DNA of 21,217 nucleotides from a virus. Shown in pieces: positions 3,119 through 17,481 of the stretch. Position 1 is the stretch's first letter, and the number at the start of each line of letters is the position of its first letter. The DNA is taken from the IMG/VR virus record IMGVR_UViG_3300049811_000043, positions 1 to 21,217 of that record; one strand, written 5' to 3'. The position numbers and the translations under genes were made by a program. Below the pieces are notes generated by a model that did not search any database, had not been told where the DNA came from, and saw only the letters and a list, made by a program, of their open reading frames with translations.

Positions 3119-3489
3119 GTCTTCTACGAATACCCAAAAAAAGTCCGAGAGCAAAGTACTGTCACCTCGATATGAGGGACTTCGACAACTGCTGTGCTCT
3201 AGCAGAAATCGGGGGCTTCCCTAATGACTTACTACCTCCCGAGCAGATCGAGGGCGCAGTCATTGACCTTCTAGAAAGACTGTCCTTTGATGTGGCTAGT
3301 CATGCAATCGTGACTTTCAACATCGAGAATCAGTCCAAGGTCATTGACTGCATCCGAAGTCTTCCAATCGTGGAGCACGAGTTCGAGTTCACGAGTGATA
3401 TAACGGGCCATCGGCTGTTAAGCATGCTTCTACACAACAGAGATATTGTCGAAGAAGCTGATTTCGACGACGAAGAAAGTGACTGGTAA
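3115..3489 (+). CDS. Hypothetical protein, member B of a tandem paralogous pair (124 aa)
   Basis: It starts in the ATGA overlap with its paralogue and has nearly the same length (124 against 125 residues). Conserved blocks are the N-C-C-x-L...GFP-x-D segment, RSLPIVEHE and the following H-R-L-L-S-M-L-L strand. The N-terminus is more basic and the C-terminus is an acidic tail (EEADFDDEESDW) that the paralogue lacks, which suggests divergence after duplication. Its TAA overlaps the ATG of the class I glutamine-amidotransferase-like gene (TAATG at 3487-3491). No known family recognised. Confidence 0.75.
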   Translation: MSLLRIPKKSPRAKYCHLDMRDFDNCCALAEIGGFPNDLLPPEQIEGAVIDLLERLSFDVASHAIVTFNIENQSKVIDCIRSLPIVEHEFEFTSDITGHRLLSMLLHNRDIVEEADFDDEESDW

Positions 3490-4088
3490 TGATCGGACAC
3501 GCACTGTTTCAGAGTAGCTTCCTCAAAGGGACTACTGTCTACACACCCGAGCAGCTAAAGGGTATCTCTCTACTCGTGCTTCATGGTGGGGAAGATATCT
3601 CTCCTGTGTTGTATGGAGAGCGAGTCGGTCACGCGCATTCCGCCCCAACCGCCAGCAAACGAGACCTAGCTGAGGTTGCTCTTGCTTTGGAAGCAAAGAA
3701 GCAAGGCATTCCGATTCTGGGAATCTGTCGCGGCGCTCAACTGATGTGTGCTCTAGGTGGCGGTGGCCTATGGCAGCATGTCAACAACCATGGTTCAGGT
3801 AGGCACGCCCTGCACATCGGTGAAGTCGCCACTTGGACGAACACCTGCCATCACCAGATGATGAAGCCAACTCCAGAAATGGAGATCATTGCAACATCCC
3901 CATGCCTCTCTCCGAAGAAGTGGGGAGAAACACAACAAGGAGTGGAAACGGACGAAGACGAACCTGAGATCATCTACATCCCAGACTTCAAAGCCCTGTG
4001 TGTCCAAGGACACCCCGAGTGGTTATCCAGTGAGGATCCGCTCGTGAAGATCACCAAACACCTACTCGAAGAAAGGAATCACCTATGA
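3489..4088 (+). CDS. Class I glutamine amidotransferase-like / gamma-glutamyl hydrolase (peptidase C26-type)
   Basis: The class I GATase catalytic set is complete: nucleophile Cys80 in GICRGAQLM (nucleophile elbow), then His175 and Glu177 in GHPEW. An N-terminal LHGGEDISP motif (31-39) matches the PuuD/peptidase C26 branch, which hydrolyses gamma-glutamyl amides instead of feeding a fused synthetase. At 199 aa it is slightly shorter than PuuD. It is the first gene of a coupled run with two amidoligases, a class II GATase and an ATP-grasp ligase. It may therefore trim, recycle or edit a gamma-glutamyl product, or supply ammonia. The substrate is not visible in the sequence. Confidence 0.85.
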   Translation: MIGHALFQSSFLKGTTVYTPEQLKGISLLVLHGGEDISPVLYGERVGHAHSAPTASKRDLAEVALALEAKKQGIPILGICRGAQLMCALGGGGLWQHVNNHGSGRHALHIGEVATWTNTCHHQMMKPTPEMEIIATSPCLSPKKWGETQQGVETDEDEPEIIYIPDFKALCVQGHPEWLSSEDPLVKITKHLLEERNHL

Positions 4089-4861
4089 GCTTCATGCTCG
4101 GGTCAGACCCTGAACTGTTCGTCGGCTCCAAGGGAAAGGTTGTGTCTGCCATCGGTCGATTTGGCGGCACCAAAGACGAGCCCAAAGCCGTAATCAGGAA
4201 AGGCTTCAGTATTCAGGAGGACAATGTTCTTCTTGAGTACAACACCCCGCCCGCTCGGCGAGCTGGAGACTGGCTCTCGTATCAGATGACGATGCGAGAG
4301 TATCTGGAAAAAGAGGTATCGAAACAAAATCTGGAGATTCTTCCGATTGCGTCAGCCTCGCTGTCGGATGAAGAACTCAAAGATCCCCGTGCTTGGGTCT
4401 TTGGGTGTGATCCAGACTTCAATGTGTGGACTGGGGAAATGAACCCACGCCCGCATTGCGAAGATCAAAACTTCCGTTCGGCAGGCGGCCACATCCATGT
4501 CGGCCTACCAAAGCTGACGGCAGATGAGAAGATCCACCTCACCCGGTATCTGGATCTATTCATCGGGGTGCCTCTCAGCCTCCTTGATCCAGACAAAGAT
4601 CGTCAGAAGCTTTACGGTAAGGCGGGTGCCATCCGCTTCAAGCCCTATGGTTTGGAGTATCGCACTCCGTCGAACTGGTGGACCGGTAGTGAACGCCGAA
4701 TCCAATGGATCTGGAACTCTGTGTCACACGCGTACAGCACCTATCGCCTGCGTAAGGTGATGACAAAAGACGTTGGATTGATGATCCTTGCAGCGATTGA
4801 CGAGAGGCAAACTAATGTTGCCTCTGAACTCATCAAAGCATACAGCATGGAGCTACCATGA
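4085..4861 (+). CDS. Amidoligase, COOH-NH2 ligase type (glutamine-synthetase-like fold), first of two
   Basis: It shows the hallmark motifs of phage COOH-NH2 ligases: GSDPELF (6-12), EYNTPPA (51-57), RSAGGHIHVG (131-140) and RFKPYGLEYRTPSNWW (184-199). The acidic and His residues in these correspond to metal/ATP-binding positions of the glutamine-synthetase-like fold. Such enzymes are predicted to join a carboxylate to an amine using ATP. At 258 aa it is a full single domain. ATG 4085 is in an ATGA overlap with the upstream gene, and the stop overlaps the next start in the same way (4858-4861). The substrates are unknown. It is clearly different in sequence from the second amidoligase in this operon. 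Confidence 0.88.
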   Translation: MSFMLGSDPELFVGSKGKVVSAIGRFGGTKDEPKAVIRKGFSIQEDNVLLEYNTPPARRAGDWLSYQMTMREYLEKEVSKQNLEILPIASASLSDEELKDPRAWVFGCDPDFNVWTGEMNPRPHCEDQNFRSAGGHIHVGLPKLTADEKIHLTRYLDLFIGVPLSLLDPDKDRQKLYGKAGAIRFKPYGLEYRTPSNWWTGSERRIQWIWNSVSHAYSTYRLRKVMTKDVGLMILAAIDERQTNVASELIKAYSMELP

Positions 4862-5553
4862 GAAGATTGCATGTAGTCGAGTGGGATGCTGGTGCGGTGG
4901 AGCGCAAGTTCCATCACACTATCGCAAAACTGGTGCGTCTTGATACAAAGACGCAAGAACCAGACTGGAGCGAAAGCTTCTTTGCTTGGATGCACAATGT
5001 TCAAGGGCAATCCTTTGGGACTGTCGTTAGCATTGATGGTTCCAAGTACAAGGAACACCCTGTCATTCTGGAAAACGATCCAGCGATGATTGGGAGAACC
5101 TTCCAAAGTAGCTTGGATAAGGCACGAGAGCAGGGCTTCGGGGAATACAAATGGTTCCGAGTGGTATACAATCGCTGGGAGCCGGGAGCATACGCAACCA
5201 AAGATGGTGCGTTGGTTGAGTTGGTCCACAAGATTGTCCGTGGGTTCAAGACAGGCCTAAGTGCTGGACAATGGCAGATCCTCCGGTATACATCTTCGGG
5301 GGTGGAGCCGATTTCAAACAACACCTTCTCGGTCTATACACAAACCATGTCGGGGGAACCTGCCAAGCCCGGAAAGTATGCGAACAACACGACGCTGCTT
5401 CCATCTGGACTAGTGATCTTCGGTGATGCCCTTTACTATCGGGGACAGGCTTGTGGAGTTGTGTACCCCAAGAAGATCGTTACAAAGAATCCGTTGCTGA
5501 AGGCAATTCTGGAAAAAGATGTGAAAGGACTCCCATGGCAAGTAACGTGCTAG
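4858..5553 (+). CDS. Unknown protein between the two amidoligases (231 aa)
   Basis: Coupled by ATGA to the first amidoligase and overlapping the second (start 5535) by 19 bases, so it is almost certainly part of the same module. It appears globular and soluble, with many aromatic residues. Segments such as EWDAGAVERKFHHTIAKLVR, SFGTVVSIDGSKYKEHPV and LPSGLVIFGDALYYRGQAC suggest a mixed alpha/beta fold. Possibly notable residues are His19-His20 and a C-terminal Cys. I recognise no family or catalytic motif. By position it could be an acceptor, a carrier or an accessory enzyme of the amide-forming pathway. Confidence 0.8.
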   Translation: MRRLHVVEWDAGAVERKFHHTIAKLVRLDTKTQEPDWSESFFAWMHNVQGQSFGTVVSIDGSKYKEHPVILENDPAMIGRTFQSSLDKAREQGFGEYKWFRVVYNRWEPGAYATKDGALVELVHKIVRGFKTGLSAGQWQILRYTSSGVEPISNNTFSVYTQTMSGEPAKPGKYANNTTLLPSGLVIFGDALYYRGQACGVVYPKKIVTKNPLLKAILEKDVKGLPWQVTC

Positions 5554-6389
5554 TCTCTCGGATCTTCCCCAACGCCACAAACTTCTTCTACGACATGGAC
5601 GAAGTTGATGCCTCCGTTGAGGGTAAAAAGACTTTCTTCGGGGCATTTCGAAATCCGGTCGGTATCGAAGTGGAAATGGAGAACGCTGCGGGAGGTATCC
5701 AGAACACCATCATCAAGCAAAAACTGCTCTGGAAGACCACCGCAGACAACAGCCTCAAGAACAACGGGATTGAGCTTATCAGTGACCCTGTAGCAGGGCG
5801 GGGCATTGATGCTGCAATCTTCCAGTTGGAGGCGTTGTACGAGCAATTCCCGAAGATCGATTTCTCTCATCGGTGCTCGATCCATGTCCACCAGAATGTA
5901 GCAGATATGACGGAACAGCAAGTGTTTCGTCTAATGCGGTACTACGCTCTACTAGAAGGGGCGCTGTTCAGCTACGCCCACCCCCTACGAAGCGCGAGTC
6001 CCTTCTGCTACCCAATCGTGGCATGTCCTCCAATGCTGTACAGTGCCATTGTTCGAAACGCTATGCCTGAAATGAAGTACGGGGCATTCAACCCTGCCCC
6101 AATTTCTCGGCAAACAACGGTGGAGTATCGGCATCTGGAAGGTACAAAGGATGTTCGAAAGATCCGCCGGTGGGTGCAGATTCTCTGCAAACTGCATCGC
6201 TATGTTTCCAACCTGTCTGACGAAAAGGAGGCCCGAGACTTCGAACAGATTGCTCGCGGTAAGGACGATAGGTTTGCTCCATTCGAGCGGATGCTCGGGG
6301 TACACCGCGGCCTGTTTTCAGATGAAGTACTCGATGACTCGATTTACAAGGGCCTTGTTTGGGTAGGCGCCCTTACTACGGAGGACTGA
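5535..6389 (+). CDS. Amidoligase, second and divergent family member (284 aa)
   Basis: ATG 5535 has aaagga about 7 bases upstream; the in-frame extension to 5451 would run inside the previous gene. Motifs of the Amidoligase_2-like branch are present: GIEVEME (43-49), DNSLKNNGIEL (71-81), CSIHVHQN (114-121) and TVEYRHLEGT (195-204). These are the acidic, Asn, His and Glu/Arg positions of a glutamine-synthetase-like ATP/metal site. The enzyme is predicted to form an amide or peptide bond from a carboxyl and an amine. It is followed one base after its stop by the class II GATase. Two distinct amidoligases in one operon suggest two sequential ligations or two acceptors. Confidence 0.87.
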   Translation: MASNVLVSRIFPNATNFFYDMDEVDASVEGKKTFFGAFRNPVGIEVEMENAAGGIQNTIIKQKLLWKTTADNSLKNNGIELISDPVAGRGIDAAIFQLEALYEQFPKIDFSHRCSIHVHQNVADMTEQQVFRLMRYYALLEGALFSYAHPLRSASPFCYPIVACPPMLYSAIVRNAMPEMKYGAFNPAPISRQTTVEYRHLEGTKDVRKIRRWVQILCKLHRYVSNLSDEKEARDFEQIARGKDDRFAPFERMLGVHRGLFSDEVLDDSIYKGLVWVGALTTED

Positions 6390-6390
6390 T

Positions 6391-7659
6391 ATGTGTGGAA
6401 TTTACGGTTTGTTTTACAAAGCTGCTGGTGGCTTCTTTCCCGGTGATCTGGATACGCTGAAGAACCAGGCCATCGTCACCAGTCTTCGTGGAGATCACTC
6501 CTCTGGCATCGCTGTTCTACGAAACGATGGCTCAAAGCGGCCATGGATCGTCAAGACTATCGGGGACCCTTTCAACATCTTCCACAACCCCGAAGCCATG
6601 AAGGAAATGAAGAAGTTCTTCGAGGGGTCAAAGGCAAGTGCAGGTGCGTTTGGTCACGGTCGGTTAGCAACCCGTGGCGAAATCTCCCACCGCAATGCCC
6701 ACCCGTTCGTTGAAGGGCACATCACCCTTGTTCATAACGGCACCATCAACGCTGGTCTCGACATGAAGCAAGAGTGTGAGGAGGGTAAGCAGGTAGATGT
6801 GGACAGTCATGCCCTCGCCATCGAAATGTCCAAGATTGGGGTACGCGAAGCACTCGCCAAGGTCAATGGTGCTTTTGCTATCATCGCCCACGATCAGAAG
6901 GAAAAGTGTGTCTACTTCGCACGGAACAAGGAACGGCCTCTACACTACTTGGACCACAACACACGCCTGATGGTGATGAGCGAGTTTGGTGCTCTAACTT
7001 ATCTGGGGTGGCGAGAGACCAAGTACCAAGCCAACTCTCTGAGAGCGGATTTGTTTAAGGAGTTCAAAGAGAACATTCTGTACAAGTATGATCTGACCAA
7101 GTTCACCCTTACTGAAGAAGGTCCAATCAAGGAAGTGCGGACTAGTTCCGAGAGTGGTGTCCCTTTTTACCAGAGTCCGAAGGGTGGTACAGTTGCTAGT
7201 AAAGGGGAGATTCTCCTTCTTCTGAAGAAGATCATCCCTCCTGCTCGTAAGAGCAAGGAATACACCTACATCTTCGAGGATGATGAACTGGACGAATACA
7301 TCGGACGATCCTCCAGCCTGTTCGATGTTAATGAGGGCGCACTAGCAACAGCCCCTCGGTTTTACATGGAGCGTGTGAATGGTCGTGCAGCTACGCGTAC
7401 TGTTCGCATGAAGGAAGTGGAGTGGTATGCCACTGTTGGGGATCATCCCAAGACTGTCACAACAATCAACAAGAAGGAACTGTCTTTCGAAGACTGGAAG
7501 GAAAAGCGGGATCAGGGCTGTGTCAGTTGTAGTGGCCCTATCGAAGACAAGGATGCTCACAGGACCATGCTTACCCAAACGGGTAATCTAATCTGCCATG
7601 AGTGCCTTGCAACTGATGGTTTTTCACTCTCAAGTGTTACTACAGGAGTTCTTCAATGA
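6391..7659 (+). CDS. Class II glutamine amidotransferase with C-terminal zinc ribbon (422 aa)
   Basis: It begins Met-Cys-Gly-Ile, the N-terminal-nucleophile start in which Cys2 is exposed after Met removal. Other class II GATase positions are Arg33-Gly34-Asp35 in SLRGDHSSG, GHGRLATRGE (88-97), NAHPF (102-106) and HNGTI (115-119). These hydrolyse glutamine and release ammonia. No synthetase, phosphoribosyltransferase or SIS domain follows. Instead there is a region of about 220 residues ending in a C-x2-C...C-x2-C zinc ribbon (Cys377, Cys380, Cys402, Cys405). ggagg at 6380-6384 precedes ATG 6391 by 6 bases. It probably supplies ammonia or an amide to a neighbouring ligase. The C-terminal part is unlike housekeeping enzymes. 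Confidence 0.9.
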   Translation: MCGIYGLFYKAAGGFFPGDLDTLKNQAIVTSLRGDHSSGIAVLRNDGSKRPWIVKTIGDPFNIFHNPEAMKEMKKFFEGSKASAGAFGHGRLATRGEISHRNAHPFVEGHITLVHNGTINAGLDMKQECEEGKQVDVDSHALAIEMSKIGVREALAKVNGAFAIIAHDQKEKCVYFARNKERPLHYLDHNTRLMVMSEFGALTYLGWRETKYQANSLRADLFKEFKENILYKYDLTKFTLTEEGPIKEVRTSSESGVPFYQSPKGGTVASKGEILLLLKKIIPPARKSKEYTYIFEDDELDEYIGRSSSLFDVNEGALATAPRFYMERVNGRAATRTVRMKEVEWYATVGDHPKTVTTINKKELSFEDWKEKRDQGCVSCSGPIEDKDAHRTMLTQTGNLICHECLATDGFSLSSVTTGVLQ

Positions 7660-8375
7660 AATTTCGAGTTGTTCCGTACAAGCCCGGTTCAAACAGTGCA
7701 AAGCTTCTGGCTACTGCGCTTAAGGAATCTCTTGGATACCATGTGTTCCGTGGTCCAGCGAAGCCAAAGCGCATCAACATCAACTGGGGTTGTGAAGGTG
7801 GGATCAACCCGGCAGAAGCCATCAAGAAGGCACAGAACAAACTGCGTACCTTCGAAGCCCTGAAGGACACTGATGTTCTCATCCCTTGGTTCACCACCAA
7901 CAAGACCGAGGCGGCTGAGTCCGGTAAGGACATTGTGGTGCGTAAGCTCCTCAACAGCCACAGCGGTAAGGGAATTGAGGAGTTCAACAACCAAGATGCG
8001 CCTCTGTATGTGGAGTATGTCAAGAAGATCGCAGAGTTCCGCGTTCATGTGGTCAATGGGGAAGTCATTGATGTACAGGCCAAGCGTAAGCGGAAGCTGA
8101 CTGCCCCGGATCAACCAAAGGCAAACCCACGCATTCGCAATCTGGACAACGGATGGGTGTTTTGCCGTGAAGATGTAGAAGCACCTGCTGCTGTGCTTGA
8201 GCAAGCCAAACTGGCTGTAACTAGCCTTGGCCTAGCTTGGGGTGCAGTAGACATTGTGTGGAACAAGAAGAACCAAGCCGCAGTAGTACTGGAAGTCAAC
8301 ACGGCCCCAGGACTCTGCGAGACTTCAGCCAAGATCTACGCCAACGCTTTCATCAACGCCTACGGACAGCCATGA
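7656..8375 (+). CDS. ATP-grasp domain ligase (239 aa)
   Basis: The ATP-grasp elements appear in order: a phosphate-binding loop region VVRKLLNSHSGKG (94-106), adenine/hinge strand YVEYVKK (118-124), EFRVHVVNGEVIDVQAKR with conserved Arg/Lys (127-144), and the Mg-binding strand GAVDI plus VVLEVNTAPGL (196-200, 210-220; Glu213, Asn215). ATP-grasp ligases activate a carboxylate as an acyl-phosphate and join it to an amine or other nucleophile. The N-terminal pre-grasp part is short, and the motif layout is closer to peptide-tagging or RimK/D-Ala-D-Ala-type ligases than to purine enzymes. Start and stop are both in ATGA overlaps within the module. Confidence 0.9.
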   Translation: MKFRVVPYKPGSNSAKLLATALKESLGYHVFRGPAKPKRININWGCEGGINPAEAIKKAQNKLRTFEALKDTDVLIPWFTTNKTEAAESGKDIVVRKLLNSHSGKGIEEFNNQDAPLYVEYVKKIAEFRVHVVNGEVIDVQAKRKRKLTAPDQPKANPRIRNLDNGWVFCREDVEAPAAVLEQAKLAVTSLGLAWGAVDIVWNKKNQAAVVLEVNTAPGLCETSAKIYANAFINAYGQP

Positions 8376-13947: not shown

Positions 13948-15054
13948 ATGGACTTAATATTTGACACTGAACAGACCACGTGGAACACAGGCTCCCCGTT
14001 CGATAGTAGAAATTTCAATGTCTGTATAAGTTACGCAACCTCCACCGGAGAACAAGGTGTTCTATTCGATTACCACGAATTTGAACCACTTTTCAACAGG
14101 GCCACCAAGTTAATTGGCTTCAACCTGAAGTACGATCTACATTGGCTACGCCGTCTAGGCTACGATTATCGAGGTAAAGAACTCTACTGCTGCCAAGTGG
14201 CTGAGTTCTTTCTTGGGAGGCAATCTCCCAAGTATCCGAGTCTCAACGAGACCGCTGCTCGATACGGGCTTGGCTCCAAAGTCGACAAAATAGAACAATA
14301 TTGGACTAACGGAGTTAATACCCACGAAATACCAAAGCACGAACTAGAAGAGTACGCTCTTCAAGACGCAATCCTCACGCAAAACATTTACCAAAAACAA
14401 CAAGAGCGAATACAGCCACATCAAAAGACTCTACTGAAGCTTCAAATGCTTGACCTTGAAGTTCTAGAGGACATTGAATGGAATGGTATGTTCTTTGACG
14501 AAAACCTAGCCTACAAAAAGAAGGCTGGGATTGAGGAGCAAATTGACAGGATACAAAAAGAGCTTTCCCTCTACAGTAGCGTCCCTTGTTTTAACTGGAA
14601 TAGTAACGATCACTTGTCTGCCCTTCTTTATGGGGGGCAAATACAAGAGAAACGACGTGTACCTTCGGGAATTTACAAAACAGGAGAAAAAGCCGGACAG
14701 CCCAAGTTCAAAATTGAAGTCGTAACACATACCCTACCAAGGCTGTACAAGCCGCCTAAAGGCTCTGAGCTTAAGAAAGAGGGTGTATGGTCTACTTCTG
14801 AAGAGTATTTACGCAAACTATCAGACAAGAAAGGACTTGTAAAAGGTATTTTGGAAATCGGTAGATTGCAGAAGCTAAACTCAACCTTCGTTGAGGGACT
14901 GCTTAAAAAGCACGCCGAGAGTATGTGGGAGCCCCACTACATACATGGGCAATACAATCAGGTTGTCACTAGTACCGGTAGATTGTCTAGCTCAGGTCCA
15001 AATATGCAGAACCTATCTGGGGATGCCTTAGATCTATTCACCACGAGGTACTAA
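13948..15054 (+). CDS. DNA polymerase (family A), N-terminal part: 3'-5' exonuclease and start of the polymerase domain
   Basis: All three proofreading motifs are present: Exo I (Asp6-x-Glu8 in FDTEQT), Exo II (GFNLKYDLHW, Asn59/Asp63) and Exo III (YALQD, Tyr136/Asp140). Thumb/palm sequence follows up to the conserved GRLSSSGPNMQNLSG (344-358). The frame then stops at TAA 15052-15054, just before motif A of family-A polymerases. Motifs A, B and C are found downstream at 15229-15933 in the same reading frame. The start at 13948 places Exo I at residue 6, as expected, although no Shine-Dalgarno is visible. This is therefore one half of a split polymerase, 368 aa long. Confidence 0.88.
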   Translation: MDLIFDTEQTTWNTGSPFDSRNFNVCISYATSTGEQGVLFDYHEFEPLFNRATKLIGFNLKYDLHWLRRLGYDYRGKELYCCQVAEFFLGRQSPKYPSLNETAARYGLGSKVDKIEQYWTNGVNTHEIPKHELEEYALQDAILTQNIYQKQQERIQPHQKTLLKLQMLDLEVLEDIEWNGMFFDENLAYKKKAGIEEQIDRIQKELSLYSSVPCFNWNSNDHLSALLYGGQIQEKRRVPSGIYKTGEKAGQPKFKIEVVTHTLPRLYKPPKGSELKKEGVWSTSEEYLRKLSDKKGLVKGILEIGRLQKLNSTFVEGLLKKHAESMWEPHYIHGQYNQVVTSTGRLSSSGPNMQNLSGDALDLFTTRY

Positions 15055-15239
15055 TGGCCCCATACTACAGTTGTTTGGAAGAGCTTCAAAAGTGGTTTCG
15101 AGAGTACGGGGTTGCTACAGTCATGGAGGATCTTCAACTACTTAATCCAGAACTATACGCCCAGCTTGAAAGCTTCTTCCAACGGGAGACTAAAGGCAAG
15201 GAAATCGCCGCTCTGTTAAAGAGCAAGTATGCTGGTTAA
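15054..15239 (+). CDS. 61-aa ORF inserted between the two polymerase parts
   Basis: It starts in a TAATG overlap with the N-terminal polymerase part and overlaps the start of the C-terminal part by 11 bases, so all three frames are coupled. The product is helical with mixed charge (CLEELQKWFREYGVATVMED, then LESFFQRETKGKEIAALLKS). I recognise no endonuclease, intein or recombinase motif. It could bridge the polymerase halves, be a DNA-binding helix bundle, or be the remnant of an invading element. Confidence 0.6.
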   Translation: MAPYYSCLEELQKWFREYGVATVMEDLQLLNPELYAQLESFFQRETKGKEIAALLKSKYAG

Positions 15240-15933
15240 GATTGATGCAGCAACTCTTGAATGGCGTGGGGCTGCTTGGTTGTCGAATGACAAAACTGCT
15301 ATCGAAGAAATCAATGATGGCGGTGACTTTCACTCTGCAAACCAAACGGAATTCGGGCTACCCACACGCCTAATTGCAAAGCGGTATCTGTTTCGTACCA
15401 TCTATAGGGGGTCTGGTTATGCGTTCTCCGTAGACAATGACTTCAGCGTAGTAAGCGACAAAGCAGATTTTTGGGACAGTATCAATGAGAAGTTTTACAA
15501 GAAGTATTACGGGTTGGATTCGTGGCACCACTCACTTGCACGCACCTGTGCAGAAAGAAAGCCGATACGATCTCCTCTTGGTCGAGAATGGCTGGTGCTT
15601 CCTGATCCCCTCACAGGCAAACTACCCTGGACAGTCTTCACAAACTATCCAGTACAGGGAACCTGTGCAGACCTGATGGCAATTGCTCGTGTCAGTTTGT
15701 ATCGACGCCTACGAGCAGCCAAGTGTCAAGCTGTCCTAGTATCTACAGTACACGACGATATCAAAGTAGACGCACCTGATTCGGAGGTCCCCTTTGTAGT
15801 AGATACAGCGTACAAGGTGTTTGATGATTTGCCAAACAATGTCAAAAGAATGTTTGGAGTAACACTACCAATCAAGTTCCCAGGAGAAGTCTCCGTAGGG
15901 AAAAACCTACTAGAAATGGAAAAAGTGAAATGA
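15229..15933 (+). CDS. DNA polymerase (family A), C-terminal part with catalytic motifs A, B and C
   Basis: Motif A begins almost at once (VKIDAATLEWRGAAWLS; catalytic Asp6, Glu11, Arg13). Motif B is R-x3-K-x3-F-x3-Y (RLIAKRYLFRTIY, Arg47/Lys51/Phe55/Tyr59). Motif C is STVHDDIKVDAP (172-183; His175, Asp176, Asp177). These are the palm and fingers of a T7/PolI-type polymerase. ATG 15229 lies inside the 3' end of the 61-aa ORF. Its frame equals that of the N-terminal part, separated by a 174-base stretch (15055-15228) that is a multiple of three. The two parts must associate, or be joined at RNA level, to make an active enzyme. The stop overlaps the SSB start (ATGA at 15930). Confidence 0.88.
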   Translation: MLVKIDAATLEWRGAAWLSNDKTAIEEINDGGDFHSANQTEFGLPTRLIAKRYLFRTIYRGSGYAFSVDNDFSVVSDKADFWDSINEKFYKKYYGLDSWHHSLARTCAERKPIRSPLGREWLVLPDPLTGKLPWTVFTNYPVQGTCADLMAIARVSLYRRLRAAKCQAVLVSTVHDDIKVDAPDSEVPFVVDTAYKVFDDLPNNVKRMFGVTLPIKFPGEVSVGKNLLEMEKVK

Positions 15934-16430
15934 GTTCAATCAACATTCAAGTAATCGACGTATCCATTGTGGAAAAGGCGTCTGCCACAGGTAACACCTA
16001 CAATGCAATGAACGTCGCTTATACGAACCTTGACTCTGGTAAAGTGGAGTCAAAGTCCCTGTTTGCGTTCTCTGCTCCAAAGGATGTATGGAGCACCCTA
16101 GAGACAGCAGGTAAAGGGACAATCTTCTCAGTGGATCGTGAGAAGGACAAGAAGCAGGGTAAGTATTGGGAGTGGGTCGGTATCCACCGGCAAGACGCTC
16201 CCCCTCCCCGTAAGGAAGGTACTACTCCCACTCGTCCAGCTTATGAGACTCCTGAGGAGCGAGCAGGTCGGCAGGTTTCAATTGTACGCCAGTCCTGTCT
16301 CAAGTCAGCAGTAGAGCTTATGCGAGAGCATACGTCTGATCCAAGCATCGTAATCAATATCTCAAAGCAGTTTGAGGCATATGTGAATGGTACTTCAGTA
16401 GCAGACATTACTGACGACATTCCATACTAA
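15930..16430 (+). CDS. Single-stranded DNA-binding protein-like (166 aa)
   Basis: The N-terminal half (residues 1-90) has the alternating beta pattern of an OB-fold (SINIQVIDVSIVEKASATG, then GKYWEWVGIHR). A Pro/Arg-rich linker follows, then a helix (SIVRQSCLKSAVELMREH), and the protein ends in an acidic, aromatic tail (DITDDIPY). That tail is the usual SSB feature for recruiting replication partners. This layout is seen in phage SSB-like proteins. It is coupled to the C-terminal polymerase part by ATGA. Assignment rests on architecture and tail rather than on a full family match. Confidence 0.7.
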   Translation: MSSINIQVIDVSIVEKASATGNTYNAMNVAYTNLDSGKVESKSLFAFSAPKDVWSTLETAGKGTIFSVDREKDKKQGKYWEWVGIHRQDAPPPRKEGTTPTRPAYETPEERAGRQVSIVRQSCLKSAVELMREHTSDPSIVINISKQFEAYVNGTSVADITDDIPY

Positions 16431-16629: not shown

Positions 16630-16717
16630 GCGGGTATGGCCGAGTGGTTTAAGGCACCTGCCTTCCAAGCAGGCGCTATTAAGTTAGCCGCGAGTTCGAA
16701 TCTCGCTGCCCGCTCCA
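16630..16717 (+). tRNA. tRNA with anticodon UCC (Gly) and a long class II variable arm
   Basis: The cloverleaf folds cleanly by eye. The acceptor stem is GCGGGTA/TGCCCGC (one G-U) with discriminator U and encoded CCA (16715-16717). The D stem is GCC/GGC with an 11-base loop. The anticodon stem is CCTGC/GCAGG with loop CTTCCAA (anticodon UCC at 16664-16666). The T arm is GCGAG/CTCGC with TTCGAAT. Between the anticodon and T arms is a 16-base variable arm with a 4-bp stem (GCTA/TAGC). The anticodon loop, discriminator and first acceptor pairs are those of bacterial tRNA-Gly(UCC), but a long variable arm normally belongs to Ser, Leu or Tyr tRNAs. The D arm also looks Ser-like. Confidence 0.88.
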
Positions 16718-16731
16718 CTAACAAGGAATAT

Positions 16732-17481
16732 ATGTCCAAAGTTGTACTCATAGACGGCGACACAGTTGCCTACCGATGTGCTGCTTCAATCCTACCTTCT
16801 AAGAAAAAGCCAGATGCAGACCCTCCAGAGCTTGCTATTCGACGAGCCGACGAACTCATGTTCAGAATACTCAATACTTGCCAGAGTACTGAGTACAAGC
16901 TATACATATCAGGTTCAGAGAACTTTAGATACGAACTCTATGGAGATTACAAAGCAAATCGGGTTGGGAAAGAACGTCCAATTATGTTGGAGCCCGTTAA
17001 AGAGTTTCTACTTTCGGAGTGGGAAGGCATTCTTACTCACGGTTACGAAGCCGATGATGCCATATCGATCCAGGCTTCGATGGAGAACGCGGTTGACAAT
17101 GAGCCCGGACGTTCCGAATACATCATCGCCGCGAATGACAAAGATTTTCTACAGCTTCCTGGGGAACATTATAACTTTGTCACCGATGCTTTCCAGATGG
17201 TTAGTGAAGACGAAGCTCTTTGGAACTTCTGGAACCAAGTTCTTACGGGAGACTATAGTGATAACGTACCCGGCCTTTCACGAGTCGGACCTGCAAGGGC
17301 TGCAAAAATACTGTCTGGTCACTCTCCCCGAGACTATGCCGAAGTTGTCAGGAACGCTTATAACGATGCCAGACAATTCTCTCGGACTTATCACCTAATC
17401 CGACTACTACGAAGTGAAGAGGAGTATGAAGACCTCAAGCGCAAAATCGAAAGGAAGGAATTTACAGAGGAGGGTGCGTGA
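16732..17481 (+). CDS. 5'-3' exonuclease / FEN-type nuclease (T7 gp6-, T5 D15-like; 249 aa)
   Basis: FEN motifs: N-terminal VVLIDGDTVAYR (Asp8, Asp10), the helical-arch region with DYKANR (72-77), EADD (106-109), ANDKDF (134-139; Asp136, Asp138) and the helix-3-turn-helix GDYSDNVPGLSRVGPA (173-188). It would remove RNA primers and degrade host or displaced DNA. The reading frame is open back through the tRNA, but ATG 16732 is the real start, with aagga 5 bases upstream and the motif at residue 8. The gene ends in a TGATG overlap with a nested ORF and overlaps the following nuclease gene. Confidence 0.87.
   Translation: MSKVVLIDGDTVAYRCAASILPSKKKPDADPPELAIRRADELMFRILNTCQSTEYKLYISGSENFRYELYGDYKANRVGKERPIMLEPVKEFLLSEWEGILTHGYEADDAISIQASMENAVDNEPGRSEYIIAANDKDFLQLPGEHYNFVTDAFQMVSEDEALWNFWNQVLTGDYSDNVPGLSRVGPARAAKILSGHSPRDYAEVVRNAYNDARQFSRTYHLIRLLRSEEEYEDLKRKIERKEFTEEGA

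Follow-up and report, generated by a model that had tools for sequence, protein, structure and literature searches.

The gene at positions 16630-16717 of the IMG/VR virus record IMGVR_UViG_3300049811_000043 is a real, intact, chimeric phage tRNA-Gly(UCC) with a class II shape. It is one of a recurring phage kind that we did not find described. Long variable arms in bacteria are a hallmark of the Ser, Leu, Tyr and Sec tRNAs. Judging from its sequence, an ordinary function in an unusual body is the most likely reading of this gene. The whole stretch of DNA that was analysed, 21,217 bases in length, is hereafter called the window.

ARAGORN reports tRNA-Gly(tcc) on the + strand at 16630-16717 as the sole tRNA of the window, and the Rfam tRNA family RF00005 matches the same positions with 61.7 bits (gathering score 29, E 2e-11), the extra bases being placed as an insertion in the variable region. 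The acceptor stem, built from GCGGGUA (16630-16636) and UGCCCGC (16707-16717, together with U73 and an encoded CCA), contains 7 bp, one of them U-G, and starts with the Gly determinants G1, C2 and G3, as judged from the sequence, the isotype score and the literature (PMC9976931). Positions 8-26, including the D arm, read UGGCCGAGUGGUUUAAGGCA (16637-16656). The anticodon arm CCUGC-CUUCCAA-GCAGG (16657-16673), assigned from ARAGORN and the nearest tRNA-Gly(UCC), bears UCC at 16664-16666, which reads GGA. It is followed by the variable region C44-GCUA-UUAAGU-UAGC-C48 (16674-16689) and by the T arm GCGAG-UUCGAAU-CUCGC (16690-16706), which is common to Ser, Gly and other tRNAs and is not diagnostic. 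The UCC anticodon, U73, the G-C, C-G, G-C start of the acceptor stem and the loop CUUCCAA are thus as given in the preliminary description of this DNA. A long open reading frame running through the tRNA (16636-17481) is merely a reading of the tRNA itself.

The variable region comprises 16 nt, namely a 4-bp stem, a 6-nt loop and one nucleotide on each side, a register typical of Ser, and places the molecule in class II (variable region of at least 10 nt forming an arm). The minimum free energy fold computed with ViennaRNA (z -2.56) keeps this stem along with the acceptor and T arms; it is a fold of the unmodified sequence, in which the D and anticodon arms are drawn otherwise. The 16-base arm with its 4-bp stem was therefore correctly described, and a covariance-model fold does not remove it, since the Rfam model treats the arm as an insertion. 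Shuffles of the 16 nt yield a 4-bp stem in the same register in 1.3% of cases and anywhere in 30%. Taken alone, the arm is weak evidence because shuffled sequences often form such stems; the tRNA as a whole is not a chance occurrence.

To which isotype each part belongs was assessed with a score that leaves out the anticodon and relies on 2,302 tRNAs of 20 isotypes, nearly all viral and taken from the loci fetched (leave-one-out accuracy 82%; 219/237 for Gly and 172/178 for Ser). The whole tRNA scores Gly +6.1, Cys +0.8 and Ser -7.3 bits. The acceptor stem and position 73 lie 30 bits apart for the two candidates (Gly +12.6, Ser -17.7), whereas the D arm gives Cys +9.7, Ser +8.5 and Gly -9.5, and the T arm is undecided. 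As a caveat, the pattern that supplied some of the Gly training sequences fixes G71, C72 and U73, but tRNA-Gly of other anticodons, which were obtained without it, have the same states (C2-G71 in 78/80, U73 in 71/80). Direct comparison divides the molecule likewise: the D, variable and T arms, taken as a unit, match phage tRNA-Ser(UGA) best, and both ends match tRNA-Gly(UCC) best. Over 20 nt the D arm is identical to that of five of 178 tRNA-Ser, the exact sequence being that of phage tRNA-Ser(UGA), and has no identical counterpart among the 2,124 tRNAs of the remaining 19 isotypes. Calling the D arm Ser-like thus holds for its exact sequence, with the refinement that by isotype score it is equally Cys-like. 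Variable regions that start with CG and end with CC occur in 46/178 Ser, 0/163 Leu and 0/69 Tyr tRNAs, and a stem with a single nucleotide on either side is the predominant register in Ser (111/178), not in Leu or Tyr.

The gene does not fit entirely into either family. All the determinants G1-C72, C2-G71, U73, C35 and C36 of bacterial tRNA-Gly are present, while the class I core is replaced by a 16-nt variable region and a Ser-type D arm; a short variable loop is a usual feature of bacterial tRNA-Gly, not an identity element. Seen from the serine side, the long arm in Ser register and the G15-C48 pair are there, while the anticodon UCC is not a serine one and C2-G71 and U73 stand in place of the G2-C71 and G73 found in 176/178 and 152/178 phage tRNA-Ser, respectively. 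Phage tRNA-Ser(UGA) shares with the window tRNA the 20-nt D arm (in five sequences), a CG...CC variable region, G15-C48 and A26-C44, but differs in its acceptor stem (G2-C71), G73, anticodon arm and usually longer variable arm (5-7 bp). Conversely, ordinary class I tRNA-Gly(UCC) of bacteria and phages has the same acceptor stem, U73 and anticodon arm but a different D arm and variable region. With the core (D arm, variable arm, 15-48 pair) of tRNA-Ser(UGA) and the ends of tRNA-Gly, the gene is either chimeric or derived from a Ser-type tRNA whose two ends were remodelled. The initial view of a class II, Ser-like body bearing Gly identity elements is therefore upheld by isotype scores and sequence matches alike.

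The tRNA gene lies between a small open reading frame ending around 16620 and an exonuclease gene on the same strand, within a replication cassette whose members are a helicase, a family A DNA polymerase in two parts, a conserved small gene and this exonuclease. The first half of the polymerase (13948-15051) was identified by PHROG DNA polymerase matches and the second (15229-15933, + strand) by tblastn to L480-L486; this arrangement of two open reading frames with a small one in between (13948-15933) is also seen in MW202697, OK172329 and MEP402. The small gene between polymerase and exonuclease (15930-16430, + strand) is conserved in relatives and could be called "ssb" by position only. The 5'-3' exonuclease (16732-17481, + strand; PHROG 107, E 3.9e-50) starts 15 nt after the tRNA. 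As no promoter-like site was found beside the tRNA, it is probably processed from the transcript of the operon. Relatives were sought in IMG/VR by helicase alignment, which gave 80 of them; the exonuclease as a single query found none there. In three of the 80 (L503, L505 and L509), an ordinary tRNA-Gly(UCC) of class I stands in the interval from polymerase to exonuclease. It lies upstream of the conserved small gene; the window tRNA, by contrast, is on the downstream side of that gene. Other cassettes hold tRNA-Trp, Thr, His, Tyr or a UUA-anticodon tRNA, that of MW202697 holds tRNA-Leu(UAA), and most relatives have none. The preliminary description suggested looking for the same tRNA in related phages; three of them have a tRNA-Gly(UCC) in the cassette, of class I. 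The UUA-anticodon tRNA (L490:11472-11542) resembles an ochre suppressor. The cassette site takes up tRNA genes, tRNA-Gly(UCC) being the most frequent of them, which supports a role of the window tRNA in elongation.

Glycine identity in bacteria depends on G1-C72, C2-G71, C35, C36 and U73, while for serine the variable arm counts most and the anticodon does not, G73 and acceptor pairs also being determinants; in E. coli tRNA-Leu, C2-G71 acts as an antideterminant towards SerRS (PMC9976931). The ends of the window tRNA, with the Gly determinants, C2-G71 and no G73, would hence call GlyRS and repel SerRS, although the core could still attract the latter. The reading of GGA was examined from 60 such codons that occur in 18 of the window's genes: among 136 aligned homologue residues 90 (66%) are Gly and 1% Ser, GGC and GGG codons align in the same way, and 14 of the 24 well-covered positions (at least three homologues) are invariant Gly, none being Ser. 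GGA therefore means glycine in this phage, and GGN codons are read as glycine in its own genome, a result that describes the code and not the action of the tRNA.

We consider it probable, from these sequence features, that the window tRNA is a functional elongator tRNA-Gly(UCC) that would be charged by GlyRS and deliver glycine at GGA, perhaps also GGG, codons during infection. The host glycyl-tRNA synthetase would charge it through the acceptor stem, U73 and the anticodon arm, which are the parts it reads. The long arm would be tolerated because GlyRS needs no short one, and SerRS would be kept off by C2-G71 and the missing G73. Its transcription with the replication operon, its maturation and its glycylation are predictions, as is any reason given for the arm. 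Counting against an elongator, most relatives lack a tRNA in the cassette, and no promoter-like site adjoins this one. The preliminary description rightly asked whether the tRNA is glycylated, serylated or mischarged; its Gly acceptor stem, U73, C35 and C36, its C2-G71 pair and its lack of G73 favour the first of these, as do the glycine meaning of GGA in the phage proteins and the class I tRNA-Gly(UCC) in the cassettes of relatives.

Charging by both GlyRS and SerRS, which would place some serine at GGA codons and give rise to statistical proteins by accident or design, is unlikely. In its favour, tRNA-Ser with an altered anticodon is known to remain serylated in yeast. Some serylation is conceivable because the window tRNA has a Ser-type D arm and a variable arm in the Ser register, and serine identity in bacteria lies mainly in the arm (PMC9976931). 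Against it stand the documented antideterminant C2-G71, the absence of the G73 and G2-C71 of tRNA-Ser and a 4-bp arm that is at the short end for phage tRNA-Ser (mostly 5-7 bp). A decaying or recombinant gene without function is rather more improbable: it would agree with the mosaic make-up, the isolation of the tRNA and its lack in most relatives, but all stems pair, CCA is encoded, the Rfam score is 61.7 bits and the same architecture recurs in unrelated phages. The proposal that a seryl-tRNA inserts Ser at GGA codons, so that GGA would be serine in this phage, draws on the class II core only and can be considered extremely improbable; general recoding is refuted by the homologous residues (66% Gly and 1% Ser, as for GGC and GGG).

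The window also encodes, at 3489-8375, a glutamine amidotransferase, a COOH-NH2 ligase, an amidoligase, a class II glutamine amidotransferase and an ATP-grasp protein, in an order much the same in MW202697 and OK172329. That the tRNA acts outside the ribosome as an aminoacyl donor for this module, as had been proposed, has scarcely any probability. The two share a contig (module at about 3.5-8.4 kb), but the tRNA is 8 kb away in the replication cassette, where relatives carry class I tRNA-Gly(UCC), and the module stands without tRNA-Gly in MW202697, OK172329, SCYZ1 and many IMG/VR relatives; the tRNA therefore does not belong to the module.

Similar genes were sought with a pattern describing a tRNA-Gly(UCC) that has U73, CCA and no fewer than 9 nt in the variable region. 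In IMG/VR, 104 stretches match, and the fetched loci hold 94 such tRNAs according to ARAGORN, 72 of them distinct; 58 stretches match in 84,980 bacterial and archaeal genomes, only three of which are long-arm tRNA-Gly(UCC) free of N runs (L126, L139 and L169). These are absolute numbers from which no frequency is claimed for Gly, and the genome count is a lower bound because the pattern needs an encoded CCA, absent in many bacteria. L169 may itself be viral, its neighbours being an RtcB-type ligase and a second protein of a phage family. Two loci with N runs (L116 and L117) were left out of the long-arm set, which contains 77 distinct sequences with the window tRNA and that of Xanthomonas phage XacN1. 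Stems of at least 3 bp are formed by 61 of the 77, vs 40 +/- 3.5 in shuffles (maximum 51 in 300), and in 69 of them Gly has the top score when the anticodon is left out. Pair 3:70, which the pattern leaves free, is G-C in 74/79 long-arm tRNA-Gly(UCC). In a plasmid search, no clear long-arm tRNA-Gly was seen among the best matches (aligned lengths 74-75 nt).

Several architectures exist among these tRNAs. A small group comprising the window tRNA, XacN1, L050, L062 and L011 shows a GAG-GG Ser-type D arm and the Ser register, and in many others the arm is inserted into a tRNA whose D arm is of class I. A pattern combining the Ser-type D arm with a free acceptor returned only L011, L062 and two unsuitable matches, and so provides no unbiased test of the identity elements. 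In L013, L027-L030, L033, L035, L046, L047, L083, L085, L110, L111 and others, an almost identical variable sequence, AGGCGAATAGTTTAC, sits on class I bodies that look ordinary elsewhere; such conservation of a variable region is odd. In the openly accessible literature, we found no description of long-arm class I isotypes in phages. The preliminary description named simple charging behaviour with many known homologues as a possible refutation; homologues are numerous as sequences, and our search found neither a paper describing them nor charging data.

Long arms extend to other class I isotypes. A parallel pattern for tRNA-Thr(UGU) matched 79 stretches, and 60 distinct tRNAs of this kind were obtained over all loci. 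Among class I phage tRNAs in positions not selected by a pattern, 42/959 (about 4%, from ARAGORN calls on the other tRNAs of the fetched loci and including some doubtful calls) have a variable region of at least 9 nt, the highest proportions being those of Ile (10/44), Lys, Thr and Asn, with 0/65 for Gly. The tRNA-Ile(UAU) of L180, L217, L257, L288, L382, L383, L395, L427 and L428 have a variable region of 21-25 nt, and most of these calls share a CCAGATTAG-like motif. Cultured phages also carry long-arm tRNAs with U73, namely tRNA-Thr(UGU) in Sinorhizobium phage phiM12 (L004:2501-2584), tRNA-Lys(CUU) in Caulobacter phage CcrBL9 (L005:1492-1578) and tRNA-Cys(GCA) in RHph_TM30 (L006:1489-1576). 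In PhiPA3 (L003:2494-2582), a tRNA-Thr in GenBank is a tRNA-Ser(UGA) according to ARAGORN, likely an annotation error.

Why an elongator tRNA-Gly would bear such an arm can be explained in two ways. The arm may be neutral, being accepted by GlyRS, EF-Tu and the ribosome while recombination remakes phage tRNA genes, which fits the data. Alternatively, and as a tentative suggestion only, the arm could be adaptive, making the phage tRNA-Gly a poor substrate for tRNA-targeting defences such as anticodon nucleases and toxSAS; GlyRS, EF-Tu and the ribosome would still accept it, so this explanation is compatible with the elongator reading and adds a reason to it. The contrast between 94 long-arm tRNA-Gly(UCC) in viral contigs and three in 84,980 genomes points in this direction, as do the long arms of class I isotypes such as Thr, Ile, Lys and Asn and the known escape of phage tRNAs from PARIS, PrrC and retron effectors (PMC12409363, PMC11555353, PMC10264068). 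Relaxed constraint on phage tRNAs, however, gives the same counts, and we know of no effector that is blocked by a variable arm on tRNA-Gly. In pull-downs, FaRel2, a toxSAS acting on tRNA-Gly and tRNA-Thr, recovers tRNAs of type I but not of type II (PMC11559606). This enzyme recognises the acceptor stem, a minihelix being enough for modification, and the window tRNA keeps all four of its determinants (G1-C72, C2-G71, G4-C69 and G5-C68), hence the arm need not protect against it and FaRel2 was marked down as the specific defence escaped. The broader idea that phages repeatedly rebuild class I tRNAs on long-arm cores, which host synthetases would charge and tRNA-targeting defences would miss, is slightly more speculative still. 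If true, shape-shifted tRNAs would be a form of counter-defence.

Long-arm tRNA-Gly, recurrent in phages and almost absent from the bacterial and archaeal genomes searched, are a natural test of the parts read by GlyRS and SerRS. They offer a lead on the old question of why phages carry tRNAs, codon compensation or defence escape. Annotation pipelines name long-arm tRNAs by their anticodon and overlook the arm.

Among known systems, the tRNA-Gly of Xanthomonas phage XacN1 (AP018399.1, 39053-39138) resembles the window tRNA over its full length (77.5% identity). Both have UCC, a GCGGG acceptor, U73, CCA, a Ser-like D arm and a 4-bp variable arm flanked by single nucleotides; they differ in the sequence of the variable arm and in the D-loop. 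The XacN1 gene belongs to a cluster of 29 tRNA-like sequences in a jumbo phage, and the paper on this phage gives a count of canonical tRNAs in which the arm goes unmentioned (PMC5852040). Allo-tRNAs, selC* tRNA-Cys and tRNA-Sec likewise combine a long variable arm with anticodons outside Ser, Leu and Tyr (PMC7609411), but their acceptor stem is longer (more than 7 bp), whereas the window tRNA is a canonical 7/5 tRNA with a 7-bp stem. The closest eukaryotic parallel is the nematode nev-tRNA-Gly(CCC), which also unites a glycine anticodon with a variable arm of 15-20 nt, and which takes leucine, not glycine, in vitro (PMC4300185). Unlike the UCC-bearing window tRNA, it is eukaryotic, has CCC and carries a Leu-type arm and core; U73, G15-C48 and the Ser-type core set the phage molecule apart, and the two kinds probably had independent origins. 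The nev-tRNA nevertheless warns that a long arm can recruit the wrong synthetase.
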